DNA of 64,000 nt from Cephalotus follicularis (taxonomy: Eukaryota > Streptophyta > Magnoliopsida > Oxalidales > Cephalotaceae), in contig BDDD01000570.1 of assembly GCA_001972305.1 (NCBI GenBank), positions 62,001-126,000 of the forward strand. Direction: 5' to 3'. Positions 28,871 to 60,668 of this stretch are shown one piece after another; the first letter of the stretch is position 1, and each line of letters begins with the position of its first letter. A model generated the notes under the pieces. It saw nothing but the letters and a program-made list of their open reading frames with translations, was not told where the DNA came from and did no database searches. The translations under genes were made by a program, and so were the position numbers.

Positions 28871-30826
28871 TGTCACACCCCGTTATTTCAATGCCATCTT
28901 TGACCAGCATATATGGTGATATCAGTATTTAAACATACATTCCAGCATTTCATTCAAAAGAATATCACAATGTGCGGAAGCAGTCAATAAGCCGGAATAT
29001 AAAATACAACCCATTCGCACGCATCCCATACTACGTGTGGTACAAGATAATTATTATCCTTAACATAAGGAATACTACCAGAAAACGAGGTATGATTCGT
29101 TCGTTCATTACAAAAATATAATTCCATCATAAAGAAATATAACAACCTTAAAACGATAAAAGAAGCTTTCCAAAGCTTCAGCAGCAAGTTCCCAACGTCC
29201 TCGCTCAATCTGTAATTGTAGGGGTTAGCCGTTGTCCTCACTTGGCTAAATAGGAAGATAATGTATGCTGAGGAATATATGAATGCAACATGTATGACAG
29301 TTTATATCAAAATAACATTTTAATGGACCAATATATACGCAATCACGCGAAATGGCCATAAACAATTCATATGCAAAAATACCGCACAAGGGTACAATCA
29401 ATTCATTCAGCCGTTTGGGTGTCACATGTCGCTAACTCCTAGCACCAACTGTGCACCACCTAACTATCACCCTATACACCGAGGACGATAGAACAGGTAA
29501 CAATTACTACCGGCGTTGGCGGGTAGTTTAACAGCAATTACTGCAATTGCAGACAGTGGGGTGATACTCTGGTCAACTCCTGGCACCCAGGATCACATCC
29601 ATAATCAGTGATATCCTCCATCACTAACTACGGCAGTAACATAGACAATCAATTCAATCAGTACAATCAGTAATAATATTACATATATAATCAATATGCA
29701 ATATTAATGTGTTTTCTTTAGAAACATATAACATTTCAGTAATCGTACATCTCATGTGAGGAAACGATATCAGTACAGTAGTGGTTTCCAATTCGAAAAC
29801 AAACAGTAGGTACCTCTCATGTAGGAGGAAAATCAGTAATTCCTTTAACAATAAGTATTCATTTTGATAATGATAGTAATATCATAATTTTGAGTTCAAG
29901 TCCCATAATTGGTTTCAATCTTTAAACGATCAGTGGTAGTGGTGTTAATAGCACCAAACAGTAGGTATATACTAACATAAGTAGTATATGCAGTAACTTT
30001 AAACAAAGCAGTAGTTTTTATAAATCATAGTTTTTCACTTGAAATGGTATTTAAGCCATAAATTGTGCATATAGCACATAATTCGTTCGATCAGTGAAAT
30101 ATCAGTATTAATGATGTTAAATAACATCAAACAGTATGTACCATATAATGGTAACATATACAAATCAATAACAATGCAAAACAGTAGCAATTCAATTGAT
30201 GTTGTGCAATTTTCTGCCCAGAACAGTCGACTGCCCTCAAGAACCAGTCGACTGTTGGGTTTAGTAGTCGACTGCTTTCATTGGCAGTCGACTGTTTTTG
30301 CCCAGAAATGCAGGCAGAACAGTTTATGTGTAGTGCAATTCAATGCCAAATCAGTCCAATGCAAGTAGAATTTAACATACAGGTAATGCATGATCATATC
30401 TTCCAAAACATAACACTACCCCTACCTCAATCTCCAATTGGTGGTTGGTGGTCTGCAGAGAACATGCAAACATTCACTTTTGCATGTTCTGGCAGATGGT
30501 GAGACATAAGTGCCATTATCCCATCTGTCCTTCATGTCCCTGCACATGCCAGGAATCTGTCCTGGAGCACACCAGTCGACTGGAATTAGTGGGCAGTCGA
30601 CTGCATTCTTCACGTGGTAAACCGTCGACTGTTGCCCTGTGATAGTCAGCTGTTTGGGTTAAATTAGGGTTTCCTAGTCTTTGATACTTCTCCAATTTCA
30701 CATCCACTCAACCCAAGCAACTACCAATCATAAAAATTAGTATAATTGGACAAATGACTCAATTAAAATGCATATTTTATTTCGAAATTAGATCAATATA
30801 CATTAATTGAAGTTGCGGTTACTACA
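28871..30826 (-). repeat. TE6 5' LTR
   Basis: 1956 bp; on the minus strand it begins TGTAGTAACCGCAACTTC and ends GTGTGACA. It has two four-unit GTCGAC arrays (30224-30294, 30573-30652). A weak TATA-like TGTATATGTT lies near 30153-30162. Confidence 0.9.
30224..30652 (-). promoter_or_regulatory. Two four-unit CAGTCGACTG arrays in TE6 LTR
   Basis: Cores begin at 30224, 30245, 30265 and 30285 (21, 20, 20 bp), then at 30573, 30594, 30622 and 30643 (21, 28, 21 bp). Six of the eight keep GTCGACTG exactly. Spacers are not conserved. Confidence 0.7.
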
Positions 30827-31146: not shown

Positions 31147-31570
31147 GCATCAACGCCTAACTTTATGCGTCGACGCCTAACTCTTAAGCGCTGACAGTTT
31201 TAAGTTAAGCATCGATGCTTTACACTTGATGATGAACAAGTCTGCAGAATTATGATTTTTGTCAGCACCAATCCATTTGGCGTCAATGTGCTGGGAAATC
31301 AATATTTAGGCATCAACACCATGATCAAGAGGTCAACGCCAAAAGTGCACAAATTGGACAGTAGCTTAAACTTTAACGTGAAACAAGAAGAGCGTCAACG
31401 CCTCCTCCATTCACAACTTAAGCGTCGACGCCTTTATTTTAAACGTCGACGCTTAACACTCAAGTATGTCCCATACACAAGAGTCATGGGGACACCTAGC
31501 ACATTCAACATATCAAAGCATCAACATAAAACACCAAAGAGTCGACGCCCAAGACTTAAGCGTCGACGCT
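31147..31570 (+). promoter_or_regulatory. GCGTCGACGC-type array in TE4 U3
   Basis: Cores start near 31147, 31167, 31188, 31209 (20, 21, 21 bp), then 31280, 31310, 31330, 31392, 31422, 31443, 31539 and 31560. Most gaps are about 20-21, 30 or 62 bp, near multiples of one helical turn. The array ends about 95 bp before the TATA box. Confidence 0.6.
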
Positions 31571-47658: not shown

Positions 47659-47912
47659 GCATCAACTGCTTCATCCAAAGTATCGACGGTTAGGGCCTAA
47701 GCGTCCACGTCTTCGTGCTAGGAGTCGACGGTTAAGGCGTTTTGCCTAAAGCATCGCCGCGTGCACTAAGCGTCAACCATTTTGTAACAAATAAAGCGCC
47801 GACGCTTTAACCAAAAGTGTCAACAGTTTACGCGTAAGCATCGACCATTACATGCAAGAGTTGATGGTTAGCGCGGGCAAAGCAACGATGCCTCTAGTCG
47901 AAGCGTCAACGG
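47659..47912 (-). promoter_or_regulatory. Three GTCGAC-type quartets in TE11 LTR
   Basis: Cores begin near 47659, 47680, 47701, 47722 (exactly 21 bp apart). The next are 47751, 47770, 47795, 47817, then 47838, 47858, 47882 and 47903. Cores are degenerate (GCATCAAC, AGTCGACGG, GCGTCAACC) but the spacing is kept. They lie downstream of the TATA box on this strand. Confidence 0.55.
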
Positions 47913-49906: not shown

Positions 49907-49911
49907 TCCCT
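49907..49911. repeat. TE12 target-site duplication, left
   Basis: TCCCT; partner at 57721-57725. Confidence 0.9.
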
Positions 49912-50436
49912 TGAAAGTAATGTATGGCAACCTTTAACTAATAACTTTGTATGCGGAAAATACGAATTAAGCAATGAAACTAAACAAGCACACAACACAC
50001 AAGCAAATAATCACAAGTAATAAAGAGAGAGAGAGTTAGAGAGTGTACAAACGAATTTATAGTGGTTAGGCAAATCCGTGCCTACGTCCACTTTCTCAAG
50101 AGCCCCTTGAGTTTCCACTAGAATCCACTAGCAACCTTTGATTTTCGGCTTACGGGTGCAAATCAAAGCAAACCACGTTACAATTGATTTGAGTTCCGGG
50201 TGTAAATCAATGAAACACCTTACAAGGGTTCACTCCCCTCTATTACAAAGAATGATAAAATTGAATTGTGTTGTGTTTAAAATAACCTCCCAAAGGTTGG
50301 ATATGAAAGTGATAGCTTAGTGTAAGCTTCGGATATTGATTTGAAAGATGTAGAATAGCTCTAGTGTTGCTTGGAAGTAATGTGTATTTGCTTGTTATCT
50401 CTTGATATGTATATCTTGTACAAATACCACATTCTT

Positions 50437-50447
50437 CCTTTTATAGG
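50437..50447 (-). promoter_or_regulatory. TATA box of TE12 3' LTR
   Basis: CCTATAAAAGGAAG on the minus strand, about 40 bp downstream of the nearest GTCGAC unit. The same box is at 57107-57119 in the 5' LTR. Confidence 0.7.
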
Positions 50448-50488
50448 GATCCTCCAACGGATCTATTTTTAGGCATTCAGACCAAATC

Positions 50489-50853
50489 CAGTCGGCTGGT
50501 AAAATGTTGTGCATTTGTAATTATAGCCGTTGGGAGGAGGCAGTTGGCTGGATAGACTAGGCAGTCGACTGGAAGCCTGGGCAGTCGACTGATGCTCTGT
50601 TCCAGTCGGCTGTTTGGGCTAGAAATTCGATTTCCAAAGCTACTGGTTGAATTGTGCATTTCTTGGAAGTCGGCTAGAAAGCCTTGGCAGTCGACTGGAT
50701 TGTCACGGCAGTCGACTGATGCTCTGTTCCAGTCGACTGGCTGGAGTGCATTTGCAGATTCTGGGTTTGTTTGAAGGTCCAGTCGGCTAGTCATACTTGT
50801 GCAGTCGACTGTATGCCTTGGCAATCGGCTGGTTTGTCATGGCAGTCGGCTGG
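50489..50853 (-). promoter_or_regulatory. Phased CAGTCGACTG array, TE12 3' LTR
   Basis: One core at 50489, then three groups of four: 50541, 50562, 50582, 50603; 50667, 50688, 50709, 50730; 50780, 50802, 50822, 50843. Steps within groups are 20-22 bp. Cores alternate CAGTCGACTG and CAGTCGGCTG. Spacers differ within a group, although groups one and two share GATGCTCTGTTC. Confidence 0.8.
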
Positions 50854-51028
50854 ATTGCCTGTTTCTGTAATTTAATACCTTTGCAACACTTTCAACATTA
50901 CAACCAAGTGAGCATATGAATTTGTAACATATCAAAACATGCATACAAGTATTTCTTGATTGTCACTTGTTTGTTAATCATCGAAACATAATCGTTAACA
51001 CAATTAAAGGGGTGGCAAAAGGCCAACA

Positions 51029-51614: not shown

Positions 51615-52712
51615 TCAAGAAGATCCGGGAGGTGGTGGTTGAGGGTAAGCATGTTGGAGCATTTGGATCACTTGGGCCATTTGTGCGTCTTGGGAGTCTA
51701 AGCGATCATAAATTTGATCTACCCTTCCTTGAATATATTCCATCTTTGCTTGTAGAGACTCCATGGTTGGCCGACTACTACCACTTCCACTTGGCCTCAC
51801 TTCGAATCTATCTCCGTCATCATCATCTTCTTCTTCTTCTCCAACATCTCCACCAACATCTACATCCAGTGCCCTCACCGGTGCTCTTCCCGCAGCTGGT
51901 ATCTTTACCCATAGGCCATCCTCAAACTTGATATTACAACTCCTTAAACCGGCTTTATTGATCAATTGTTTGGATTTTGGTTTGACATTGTGTTCATCAT
52001 TTAGGTCAAAGTCTAGGGTAGCTAAAATTCTACTTAGGAGCATGGGGTATGGGAGGTGATTTGGTCTTGACAAAATATGGTTGACAATAAGGTATGGGAG
52101 ATTGACAAGAGTTCCATTCTTTATGCAAGCTATTAACTTTAGGCCTCGCTCGGATGGGAGTGTATGCGAGCCTTCTCTTGGCAACAAAGTGTTGGTAACT
52201 AGCAATAAAAGAATACGAGTAGCTATGGGCAAATGGCTACTAGTGACGGTCATAATGAGATTGACATTAGGCCGTTCTAAGCAAATTTCCAATGCATCTG
52301 ATTTTTCGATATCATTGAAGTGTGTGATACCGGTGCATGGAATTCCTAGGGTTTCTCCTATGAATTCAGGGGTTATTTCAACAGCAACACCGAGAACAAA
52401 AGATTTGGCAACACAATTGGAGGTTTTCTCTAGGTTAGCATAAAAAAGTTTCACTATCCTAGGGTAAATGGGGTGTGATGAACACAAATAATCAAACCAT
52501 CCTAATTCTTCAAGCCATGGTCTAATAGAAGCAATATTGCAAGTTAAAACAGCCCTATCTAACCATTTCTCATTATGTAATTTGACAGAATTCAAAGTGA
52601 AGGTATAACTATCCTCATTTTCCTTTGAGAGGAATAAGTCACCATCATAATCCATCCTTGCACTTGCGCTTGCTTGCTTGGTTCCCGCACTTTTCCTCTT
52701 CCTTGATGCCAT
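51615..52712 (-). CDS. Passenger ORF, putative plant transposon protein family
   Basis: An intact 365-codon frame starting MASRKRKSAGTKQASASARM, with a basic, nuclear-signal-like start. Residues about 45-240 resemble the domain often annotated as putative plant transposon protein (Transposase_32-like): FYANL, VLGVAVEITPEFIGETLGIP and SSHLPIATRILLLLVTNTLL. An acidic stretch at about 285-300 (EEEEDDDD) follows, then a region from about 315 with heptad-like hydrophobic spacing (MEYIQGRVDQIYDRL) suggesting a coiled coil, and a Pro-rich end. Its biochemical role is not established. It has its own TATA box and array 90-190 bp upstream, is in the same orientation as TE12, and is the only long undamaged gene in the window. 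Family assignment is from memory of motifs. Confidence 0.7.
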   Translation of the reverse strand: MASRKRKSAGTKQASASARMDYDGDLFLSKENEDSYTFTLNSVKLHNEKWLDRAVLTCNIASIRPWLEELGWFDYLCSSHPIYPRIVKLFYANLEKTSNCVAKSFVLGVAVEITPEFIGETLGIPCTGITHFNDIEKSDALEICLERPNVNLIMTVTSSHLPIATRILLLLVTNTLLPREGSHTLPSERGLKLIACIKNGTLVNLPYLIVNHILSRPNHLPYPMLLSRILATLDFDLNDEHNVKPKSKQLINKAGLRSCNIKFEDGLWVKIPAAGRAPVRALDVDVGGDVGEEEEDDDDGDRFEVRPSGSGSSRPTMESLQAKMEYIQGRVDQIYDRLDSQDAQMAQVIQMLQHAYPQPPPPGSS

Positions 52713-52801: not shown

Positions 52802-52813
52802 TTTTATAAAAAC
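52802..52813 (-). promoter_or_regulatory. TATA box of passenger ORF
   Basis: GTTTTTATAAAAC on the minus strand, 90 bp before the ATG at 52712. A CT-rich stretch (TTCTCCTTCCCTCTC) follows, as in plant 5' leaders. Confidence 0.6.
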
Positions 52814-52828: not shown

Positions 52829-52899
52829 CAGTCGACTGGTGTCATTGGACAGTCGACTGGATCACAGACAGTCGACTGGACCAGGACACCAGTCGACTG
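52829..52899 (-). promoter_or_regulatory. Four-unit CAGTCGACTG array upstream of passenger ORF
   Basis: Four perfect cores begin at 52829, 52850, 52869 and 52890 (21, 19, 21 bp). They lie 16 bp upstream of the TATA box, the same core and spacing as in the TE12 LTRs. Spacers do not match those of the LTR. Confidence 0.8.
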
Positions 52900-56566: not shown

Positions 56567-56580
56567 CCTCTCTGATACCA
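56567..56580 (-). other. TE12 primer binding site (tRNA-Met)
   Basis: Minus strand TGGTATCAGAGAGG, two bases after the 5' LTR end. Confidence 0.85.
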
Positions 56581-56582
56581 AT

Positions 56583-57720
56583 TGAAAGTAATGTATGGCA
56601 ACCTTTAACTAATAACTTTGTATGCAGAAAATACGAATTAAGCAATGAAACTAAACAAGCACACAACACACAACCAAATAATCACAAGTAATAAAGAGAT
56701 AGAGAGTTAGAGAGTGTGCAAACGAATTTATAGTGGTTCGGCAAATCCGTGCCTACGTCCACTTTCTCAAGAGCCCCTTGAGTTTCTGCTAGAATCCACT
56801 AGCAACCTTTGATTTTCGGCTTACGGGTGCAAATAAAAGCAAACCACCTTACAATTGATTTGAGTTCCGGGTGTAAATCAATGAAACACCTTACAAGGGT
56901 TCACTCCCCTCTATTACAAAGAATGATAAAATTGAATTGTGTTGTGTTTACAATAACCTCTCAAAGGTTGGATATGAAAGTGATAGCTTAGTGTAAGCTT
57001 TGGATATTGATTTGAAAGATGTAGAATAGCTCTAGTGTTGGTTGGAAGTAATGTGTATTTGCTTGTTATCTCTTGATATGTATATCTTGTACAAATACCA
57101 CATTCTTCCTTTTATAGGGATCCTCCAACGGATCTATTTTTAGGCATTCAGACCAAATCCAGTCGGCTAGATTTTCCTTGCAGTCGGCTGGTAAAATGTT
57201 GTGCATTTGTAATTATAGCCGTTGGGAGGAGGCAGTCGGTTGGATAGAGAAGGCAGTCGACTGGATGCCTGGGCAGTCGACTGATGCTCTGTTCCAGTCG
57301 GCTGTTTGGGCTAGAAATTCGATTTCCAAAGCTACTGGTTGAATTGTGCATTTCTTGGCAGTCGGCTGGAAAGCCTTGGCAGTCGACTGGATTGTCACGG
57401 CAGTCGACTGATGCTCTGTTCCAGTCGACTGGCTGGAGTGCATTTGTAGATTCTGGGTTTGTTTGAAGGTCCAGTTGGCTAGTCATACTTGTGCAGTCGA
57501 CTGTATGCCTTGGCAGTCGGCTGGTTTGTCATGGCAGTCGGCTGGATTGCTTGTTTCTGCAATTTAATACCTTTGCAACACTTTCAACATTACAACCAAG
57601 TGAGCATATGAATTTTTAACATAGCAAAACATGCATACAAGTATTTCTTGATTGTCACTTGTTTGTTAATCATCGAAACATAATCGTTAACACAATTAAA
57701 GGGGTGGCAAAAAGCCAACA
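56583..57720 (-). repeat. TE12 5' LTR
   Basis: 1138 bp, 21 bp longer than its partner. The excess equals one array unit (CAGTCGGCTAGATTTTCCTT plus G at 57160-57180). TATA at 57107-57119, array 57160-57543. Confidence 0.9.
57160..57543 (-). promoter_or_regulatory. Phased CAGTCGACTG array, TE12 5' LTR
   Basis: Same layout as 50489-50853 plus one additional unit at its TATA-proximal end. Confidence 0.8.
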
Positions 57721-58325: not shown

Positions 58326-59038
58326 TGCAAAAATAAGACTTTTGATTGAGCTCTTTGATTTGAATGCTTTGAGTGTGATTTTCTTGAATGATGTTTGTAT
58401 GCTTGATTTGCTTGTGTTGTTCTCTTATCTGCACTTCAAAACATTCGTCCATTTATAGCTTAATGCCTCATAGATCCGTTGGGATTAGTTTAGGATTAAT
58501 TCCTTAATGGAATGTCCACTGAAATCTGTCAGAAATTGCTGCAGACGATAAAAGCGTCGACGGACCCCTCCAAAGCGTCGACGGTCATGTGACCGTTGGG
58601 GCTCCCAAATTTGAATTCTCTGCTTCAAGCGTAGACGTTCACTTGATGATGTCGACCGCCAGATAAAGCGCGGACGCTTAGGCTTTAACGTCGACGCTTA
58701 GGCACATTTTAATTGCCATTTCTTCTCTGTACCAGAAGGTAGACGCTTTGCACTAAGCGCATCCGCTTTGAGGCTCAAAGCGCAGACGCCTGAATCTGAG
58801 CGTCGACGCTTGGAGTGTTATTTCAAATTCCCCAAGTGCTTCACTGGTAGACGGTTGGTTCTTGTCTCGACCGTCTGGTAAAGCGCAGACGCTTTAATTG
58901 CAAGCGTCGGCGGTCTGGGCAGTTTCTGCATAATTCTTGCTGATTTGTTTATCTTTTATCTTTCTTGCACATAAAGAAACTTTGTCAAATACAAATATAT
59001 TATCATCAAAACATAGGATTGAGACATAAATGTCAACA
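58326..59038 (-). mobile_element. TE14: 713-bp solo LTR-like insert
   Basis: On the minus strand, TGTTGACATTTATGTCTCAA to TTATTTTTGCA splits the TE11 RNase H between GNGLG and MVIAYAS. It has a TATA box (CTATAAATGG, 58451-58458) with GTCGAC-type groups just upstream. The target-site duplication is not clean, so the ends may be off by a few bases. The LTR start TGTTGACA suggests copia. Confidence 0.6.
58554..58915 (-). promoter_or_regulatory. GTCGAC-type groups in TE14 U3
   Basis: Cores near 58554 and 58575. Then fours at 58629, 58649, 58668, 58688; at 58739, 58757, 58780, 58800; and near 58848, 58866, 58885, 58906. Words include AAGCGTCGACGG, ACGTCGACGCT, GAGCGTCGACGC. All lie upstream of the TATA box on the minus strand. 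Confidence 0.6.
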
Positions 59039-60350: not shown

Positions 60351-60668
60351 GCGTTGACGCTTTGATACATTGAAGGTGACCTTGTTCTGCGCTTTAGTTG
60401 TTGACAGTTGACGGTGATGAGCAAGGCATCGACGATTTAGTACAGAGTGTTGTGGGAATTGCTCTACGCGTCTAAGCGTCAATGGTAAAGTGTAAGGCAT
60501 TAGCGCTCTATAATGTTGATCTGAGCGTCGACGCTAACATGCAAGGCGTCGACGCTTGAAGTGTGTCAAACAATTATTATCTCCTCTATACCAAAGCGCT
60601 GCAATTTTGCTCTGAAGCATTGGTGGTTTGTATGTAAGCGTCAACGGTTTCTTTGAAGGCGTCGACGC
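60351..60668 (-). promoter_or_regulatory. GCGTCGACGC-type array in TE15 U3
   Basis: Cores near 60351, 60406, 60426, 60476, 60497, 60525, 60546, 60617, 60638 and 60659. Adjacent pairs and triplets are 20-21 bp apart. GCGTCGACGC is perfect at 60525, 60546 and 60659. Confidence 0.6.

Follow-up and report, generated by a model that had tools for sequence, protein, structure and literature searches.

The closest described parallel to the arrays reported here is the VANC/VANDAL system of Arabidopsis. According to the sections cited, VANC21 binds a nine-base motif, YAGTATTAY, that is dense in noncoding VANDAL21 DNA (PMC5735166), and VANC causes loss of methylation (PMC5735166; PMC10398659). The Cephalotus follicularis arrays resemble this system, as those sections present it, in several respects: an accessory protein encoded by transposable elements and a dense short motif in noncoding element DNA (PMC5735166); and a motif that varies between related elements, with transposase and accessory protein encoded, in Cephalotus putatively, by one element (PMC5735166; PMC10398659). 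They also differ from it. VANC motifs are asymmetric, and the sections cited describe no fixed step or quartets (PMC5735166), whereas the Cephalotus cores are palindromic. Unlike VANDAL motifs, the Cephalotus module is found in LTRs of both copia and gypsy type and in the DNA next to a hAT transposase gene.

Further parallels come from the extra open reading frames of plant retrotransposons. PF20167 is the domain of an Athila ORF1-like accessory protein, predicted to be nuclear in sunflower (PMC11728184); the maize Grande accessory gene23 has its own promoter and a nuclear protein product (PMC7264820); and Retand TRP28 comes with tandem arrays (PMC11963269). The sections cited give these and similar extra plant-transposon genes no established job, and describe no motif array common to an LTR and an accessory promoter (PMC11728184, PMC7264820, PMC11963269). 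Like them, the Cephalotus genes have a PF20167 domain, the organization of an accessory gene with its own promoter, and a proposed regulatory or DNA-binding role (PMC11728184, PMC7264820, PMC11963269). Unlike them, the Cephalotus PF20167 genes sit within copia-type elements and next to a gene for a hAT transposase.

Tnt1 BII and similar U3 boxes of LTR retrotransposons are repeated short elements that act as enhancers and, to our knowledge, are lineage-specific. The Cephalotus arrays, too, are repeated short elements in U3; boxes of the Tnt1 kind are not known to be common to superfamilies or to be built of four palindromes about two turns apart.

The window is a 64,000-nucleotide stretch (C570:62001-126000) of the 1.577-Gb Cephalotus follicularis genome. 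Two dialects of the core are distinguished: CA, CAGTCGACTG; and GC, GCGTCGACGC, with the relaxed form RCGTYRACGY. The distance peak and the core and spacer tests refer to a 314-kb sample (the window, C1:1-200000, C2:500001-530000, and two 10-kb pieces adjoining the window). Genome-wide counts refer to the excess of pairs at 18-24 bp steps, with the reversed pattern as control for CAGTCGACTG pairs. The module is real, its cores are under selection, and it is, judged from sequence, a regulatory one; the central claim of the preliminary description stands, and its wording by which a protein binds one face of the helix is conjectural. New here are the arrays upstream of PF20167 genes, the division of dialects by clade, and the GC sites beside a hAT transposase gene. 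The preliminary description, made from the letters of the window, knew of no account of the module, and none was found in the open-licence literature by title or start of abstract; the CAGTCGACTG string itself led, among the matches listed, to titles on unrelated subjects.

The element TE12 carries arrays both in its LTRs and upstream of an accessory gene. Its sense strand is the minus strand, because a primer binding site lies on that strand at the end of the 5' LTR.

56582..57720, minus strand: 5' LTR of TE12 (LTR pair 95.7% identical)
57472..57544, minus strand: quartet in the 5' LTR, steps 22-20-21, first site with 3 mismatches (core scan)
57359..57431, minus strand: quartet in the 5' LTR, steps 21-21-21 (core scan)
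57233..57304, minus strand: quartet in the 5' LTR, steps 21-20-21 (core scan)
57111..57116, minus strand: TATAAA in the 5' LTR, 43 bp downstream (sense) of the last site, sense LTR offset 604
56569..56580, minus strand: primer binding site TGGTATCAGAGA, one mismatch to the searched pattern
52829..52899, minus strand: quartet ahead of the PF20167 gene, all four CAGTCGACTG perfect, steps 21-19-21 (core scan)
52803..52812, minus strand: TATA-like box, TATAAA 20 bp past the quartet in sense (from the sequence)
51618..52712, minus strand: PF20167 (Transposase_32) accessory gene, 365 aa (Pfam E 5.9e-23; 4.6e-23 for the 365-aa form)
49911..51028, minus strand: 3' LTR of TE12, containing 50489..50853 (LTR pair identity)
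50780..50852, minus strand: quartet in the 3' LTR (50780, 50802, 50822, 50843), steps 22-20-21 (core scan)
50667..50739, minus strand: quartet in the 3' LTR (50667, 50688, 50709, 50730), steps 21-21-21, first site with 3 mismatches
50541..50612, minus strand: quartet in the 3' LTR (50541, 50562, 50582, 50603), steps 21-20-21 (core scan at up to 3 mismatches)

The three sets first seen in the TE12 LTRs are indeed three quartets in each. The U3 region of the 5' LTR contains 13 CA sites at up to two mismatches and 14 at up to three, arranged as three quartets and one pair. These arrays lie in U3 with TATAAA 43 bp past the last site, and those of another element, E1, are placed alike; further TATA matches in the TE12 5' LTR fall at sense offsets 503 and 988. 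The PF20167 open reading frame scores 82.1 bits with the Pfam profile, against a curated cut-off of 45.

Palindromic cores were first described as recurring at 19-22 bp steps, often in fours, and the counts bear this out. GTCGAC occurs 49 times in the window, against a mean of 5.24 and a maximum of 12 in 100 shuffles, and exact CAGTCGACTG occurs 21 times. At up to two mismatches to either core the window holds 93 sites, against a mean of 18.9 in 40 dinucleotide shuffles; 36 of these have the next site at 19-22 bp, and they form six quartets, both figures being zero in the shuffles. Genome-wide, exact CAGTCGACTG pairs with 8-14 bp between (18-24 bp steps) number 38,225, against 137 for the reversed control. 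For GCGTCGACGC, with 9-12 bp separating the cores, the count is 3,321 pairs, against 4.

Distances between cores tell a more complicated story. In the 200 kb of C1, which contain 141 copies, GTCGAC-to-GTCGAC distances peak at 19-22 bp with a mode of 21 (C1:1-200000), and the core-to-core peak near 20-21 bp foreseen in the preliminary description is present in the 314-kb sample. A second series of GTCGAC distances, at 27-28, 49, 70-71, 91-93, and 112 bp, accompanies the first, and the middle step of a quartet is sometimes 27-28 bp. That middle step and the second series are at odds with strict two-turn phasing. As a side observation, the distances in C1:1-200000 (L005-L024) fit 21k and 7+21k (28, 49, 70, 91, 112); 28 bp does not correspond to an integral number of turns of the helix.

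Group size is similarly distinctive for the CA dialect. The sample contains 67 CA-type runs with steps of 19-23 bp: 35 of exactly four sites, 18 of two, and 4 of one. Removal of similar copies leaves 41 runs of at least two sites, of which 17 comprise four and 15 comprise two. If steps of 27-29 bp are permitted as well, CA-type pairs in the sample drop from 18 to 7, which marks many of them as half-quartets divided by a long middle step. Among the GC-type runs of the sample, which are shorter, 37 of 62 are pairs and 3 reach four sites. The excess, the step, and the quartet size are thereby established in sequence.

Other elements of the window carry the following sets.

30224..30294, no strand assigned: CA-dialect quartet in TE6, steps 21-20-20 (core scan)
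30573..30652, no strand assigned: CA-dialect quartet in TE6, 28-bp middle step, last site with 3 mismatches (core scan)
31422..31569, no strand assigned: two GC-dialect pairs in TE4, step 21 each (core scan)
58554..58584, no strand assigned: GC-dialect pair in TE14, step 21 (core scan)
60525..60555, no strand assigned: GC-dialect pair in TE15, step 21 (core scan)

Both of the sets reported for TE6, at 30224 and 30573, are thus quartets, the second with the 28-bp step. Sites are present in TE4, TE2, TE14, and TE15 as described, in fewer or decayed copies, and the TE11 set at 47659-47722, described as exactly 21 bp apart, is weak: only 47680, 47701, and 47722 fall within three mismatches.

Element types were assigned from domains or from LTR similarity. 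E1 (C1:4376-10195) has a copia-type gag directly behind its primer binding site; TE12 and E2 are grouped with it because their LTRs resemble its own (82% and 66-76% in the longer stretches that match), so the copia label of the group rests on the one gag of E1. No gag-pol was seen for TE12 itself, part of which is occupied by a nested insertion. E4, E5, E6, and E7, which carry CA arrays, are typed as gypsy by their gag, RT, or integrase domains, and E10 (C1:155063-168028) is a gypsy element with the GC dialect. The typed LTRs represent about four backgrounds; copia-type and gypsy LTRs match one another only within arrays, in stretches of 29-81 bp. The claim that unrelated copia and gypsy lineages have the array in common therefore holds by domains and by the confinement of matches to the arrays, with the qualification that copia is represented by E1 alone. 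TATA positions do not support a proximal-promoter role for the gypsy E4-E7 arrays, since in E5-E7 the first 400 bp past the array contain no TATA match and the TATA matches of E4 precede its array.

One candidate, E8 (C1:106035-107480), had been taken for a copia LTR with CA sites and was withdrawn: the copia-type LTR pair C1:102703-103851 / 106035-107183 contains zero CA sites, and the sites lie in its flanks. The DNA flanking this gag-bearing element, C1:102356-107343 (L015), has 13 CA sites and is 66-67% like the E1 LTR. Between the LTR of the element itself and the opposite end of the E1 LTR, similarity is 82-83%.

The cores are under selection, as comparisons within and between elements indicate. 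Across 175 CA-type sites, each of the ten core positions carries 1.26-1.97 bits, against 0.02-0.07 for mid-spacer positions. For each pair, the first sequence supplied the sites (up to two mismatches). Cores are more alike than spacers in four of the five element pairs compared: TE12-E1 (cores 105/110, spacers 191/234, p 4e-4); TE12-E2 (115/129, 180/250, p 1e-4); E1-E2 (109/120, 166/219, p 7e-4); and E5-E6 (38/40, 27/39, p 3e-3). The fifth pair, E6-E7, gives no clear contrast (31/40 against 30/39; in the other direction, 21/25 against 18/26).

Repeats may favour core alignment in such comparisons, but a control with LTR pairs argues against this as the whole cause. The LTRs of a single element have had only the time since insertion in which to diverge, and in the pooled pairs of TE12, E2, and E4 the cores are less alike than the spacers (373/390 against 673/686, p.02, mostly via E4). 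Separately, the values are 115/120 and 239/244 for TE12, 166/170 and 329/336 for E2, and 92/100 and 105/106 for E4. Set beside the element pairs, these figures indicate that without selection cores change no more slowly than spacers, yet persist for as long as a lineage lasts. The statement that spacing is kept and spacers are not is thus sound for the cores, better kept in four of five pairs, and too strong for the spacers, which are partly alike: within-array spacer identity is.36, against.28 in shuffled arrays, and the TE12 quartets have a duplicated spacer in common.

To regard the arrays as a module of LTRs only, as the preliminary description did, proved too narrow. They also stand upstream of PF20167 genes and beside a hAT transposase gene; at the former their position is that of promoters, a function they may well serve there in addition to their place in LTRs. 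A CA array lies upstream of all 16 window-like PF20167 genes examined, 15 with four sites and one with three. A tblastn search with the window PF20167 protein against the 314-kb sample returned three genes, each with an upstream quartet and none inside the gypsy elements E4-E7. Eight more genes were hand-picked, promoters unseen, from 112 scored close paralogs; the array was present in 8/8, one with three units. In these eleven close relatives the array ends about 116 bp before the ATG. The remaining five were hand-picked from 105 scored members of the P0021 group, which is 59% identical to the window protein (P0021 itself has a 100% match in the genome); quartets were found in 5/5, their steps being 21-19-22 and their place about 150 bp ahead of where the match begins.

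In eight of the 16 window-like promoters, TATAA[A/C] follows about 20 bp past the array; C1a, C1b, L052, and the five P0021-group promoters have TTTAAA-like stretches or no TATA. Between the three window-like branches, cores agree at 37-39 of 40 positions and spacers at 15-22 of 32-33. L062 and L064, which belong to one branch, agree at 39/40 core and 27/32 spacer positions (p.08). The eight best-scoring relatives of the window protein are CFOL_v3 proteins of 83-91% identity. A first-look family search gave 13,073 candidate PF20167 loci in the genome (150 scored), and the domain is present in 215 of 216 Cephalotus protein clusters among those listed.

A second PF20167 clade uses the GC dialect. 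Its member L050 shares about 27% of residues with the window protein in an alignment of some 200; a second-clade open reading frame scores 97.1 bits with the PF20167 profile. The 660 bp upstream were taken for 20 of the first 21 scored genes, one near a contig start being left out. GC-dialect arrays, many of the relaxed form, lie upstream of 19/20. All 19 of these promoters contain TATATA, about 12 bp past the last main site in the printed ones and about 140 bp before the ATG, and many have one decayed site past it. The exception, L033 (C32:193912-194571), has a broken reading frame, and its CA sites apparently come from an inserted LTR. Across the 19 promoters, cores (.892) are only slightly more alike than spacers (.852), a contrast that ranks 9 among 222 shifts.

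Dialect thus follows PF20167 clade, CA in 16/16 and GC in 19/20: in the two clades compared, motif and protein have diverged together, as in a VANC-type system. A third clade, P0213-P0216, is 32-36% identical to the second. At L033, an apparent LTR end with a seven-site CA array sits directly upstream of the broken second-clade gene.

The neighbour of L050 is a convergent gene, tail to tail, in L059 (C244:456961-460460). Two of its three open reading frames match the hAT transposase domains PF14372 (E 1.1e-10) and PF05699 (E 5e-25); the third has no match. The tail between the PF20167 and hAT genes contains 16 relaxed sites in 640 bp, and the 200 bp upstream of the hAT gene's TATA-like box (read by eye) contain seven; the 2,660 bp in between, mostly the hAT transposase gene, contain none. 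The association was read at this one locus (L050/L059), and the tail recurs at a second, L060, with 12 sites and the neighbour, 91% identical over 1,600 bp. Coding DNA is likewise empty in three PF20167 open reading frames and one gag open reading frame, with zero sites against 12-17 per LTR. A dense short motif in noncoding parts was found in three LTR elements and at the one hAT-side locus. The upstream position covers copia-type LTRs and both PF20167 clades, and the genes examined are without sites. Selection on cores, position upstream of genes, and division of dialects by clade stand as results of the sequence comparisons.

These results suggest a model, on the analogy of VANC anti-silencing and with about even prospects, in which the quartets are binding-site clusters of a transposable-element control system and PF20167 is the leading candidate for their reader. 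Since the sites are palindromes, the sequence-specific factor would probably be a dimer, occupying sites about two helical turns apart. Neighbouring sites would help each other, so that four sites would give cooperative and therefore specific recruitment; the output would be promoters switched on or escape from silencing. The reader would be the PF20167 accessory protein made by the elements themselves, each clade reading its own dialect (CAGTCGACTG or RCGTYRACGY). PF20167 would be the simplest reader because dialect follows clade and because VANC provides a precedent. Gypsy carriers of CA arrays, in which no PF20167 gene was found, would ride on factor supplied in trans.

Several results weigh against this model. 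When 65 PF20167 members were compared with Pfam (E up to 10), 26 families matched; the 25 shown include no recognised DNA-binding domain and, unlike VANC, neither DUF1985 nor DUF287. Also unfavourable are the gypsy carriers in the sample with no such gene, the TATA positions in E4-E7, the window-like promoters that lack TATAA[A/C], the weak core excess in E6-E7 and in the second-clade promoters, and the copia-type LTR pair of C1 with zero CA sites. An AlphaFold model from the 65 paralogs is too poor to add to this (mean pLDDT 46.9), being fairly confident only in a C-terminal helix, 317-355. As a minor point, VANC21 YAGTATTAY and the oriented core variant YAGTCGRCTG both start with YAGT, possibly by chance.

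A broader form of the model is tentative, and we rate its prospects well short of even. In this form, transposable elements of different classes would recognise themselves: PF20167 proteins of copia-type and hAT-type elements would read quartets of about two-turn step in the promoters of their own genes and of their carriers, clade and dialect having diverged together, and gypsy elements would exploit the CA dialect with no gene of their own. This would be a second, independently built VANC-like system. If PF20167 products do read the arrays, two proteins and two probes would suffice for a direct test of their job. Such reading would also explain why unrelated elements have one regulatory word in common, and the tens of thousands of copies in the 1.58-Gb genome, with possible effects on neighbouring genes.

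The reader could alternatively be a host transcription factor (dimeric, or an AP2/ERF protein reading RYCGAC, a CBF/DREB core), so that the host would drive expression of the elements, with PF20167 promoters merely using the same sites. This is a serious contender, if somewhat below an even chance. Clusters of host-factor sites in U3 are a common means of driving LTRs; arrays occur in elements with no detected PF20167 gene; the common CA variants CAGCCGACTG and CAGTCGACTA both retain RYCGAC; and a promoter common to gene and LTR could equally be served by the host. However, a single host factor does not predict dialect by clade (16/16 and 19/20), and palindromes in fours exceed the need of one AP2 site.

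A chromatin or methylation signal is improbable. Here the symmetrical CHG-CG-CHG context (or three CG) would be read by methylation state and not by sequence. Indeed, CAGTCGACTG contains CAG, CG, and CTG, and the central CG is kept in 85 of 93 CAGTnnACTG in the sample despite CpG depletion (observed/expected.65), but sequence context by itself needs neither a step of about 21 bp nor sets of four.

A plain minisatellite, in which a 21-bp unit spreads by slippage and is carried along in LTRs, is very unlikely and already largely refuted. The duplicated TE12 spacer, the raised within-array spacer identity, and the slight contrast in E6-E7 are what it would leave behind. Against it, core and spacer conservation is unequal in the 314-kb sample: equal conservation was not found in four of five element pairs or in five of six promoter pairs, E6-E7 and L062-L064 being the exceptions with no clear contrast, and the core excess is absent between LTR pairs. 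Moreover, run length peaks at four, two dialects have about the same step, and the quartet is kept upstream of PF20167 genes while spacers change. Simple duplication or chance is similarly ruled out by the shuffles and controls, the quartet-size peak, and the core and spacer contrast.

The preferred reading, protein-bound site clusters, also has to be set against an element acting in RNA, in which neighbouring cores pair as 10-bp stems in the transcript for packaging or dimerisation: adjacent palindromes can pair, U3 sequence would sit at the 3' end of genomic RNA, and within-array variants, which for the most part share a strand (YAGTCGRCTG), would preserve G-U pairing in a single transcript sense, but this is highly improbable, as the sense strand of TE12, E1, and E2 has the non-wobble variant CAGCCGACTG, the TE12 and E1 arrays lie upstream of a TATA match and so outside the RNA 5' end, and sites also occur beside hAT and upstream of accessory genes. 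The G-U stem idea in particular was discarded on the mismatching form in TE12, E1, and E2 sense RNA, E4 having the other orientation.

Finally, the variant sites of an array tend to lie on one strand (CAGYCGACTR); E4 and the copia-type elements differ in its relation to sense, and several arrays are mixed.
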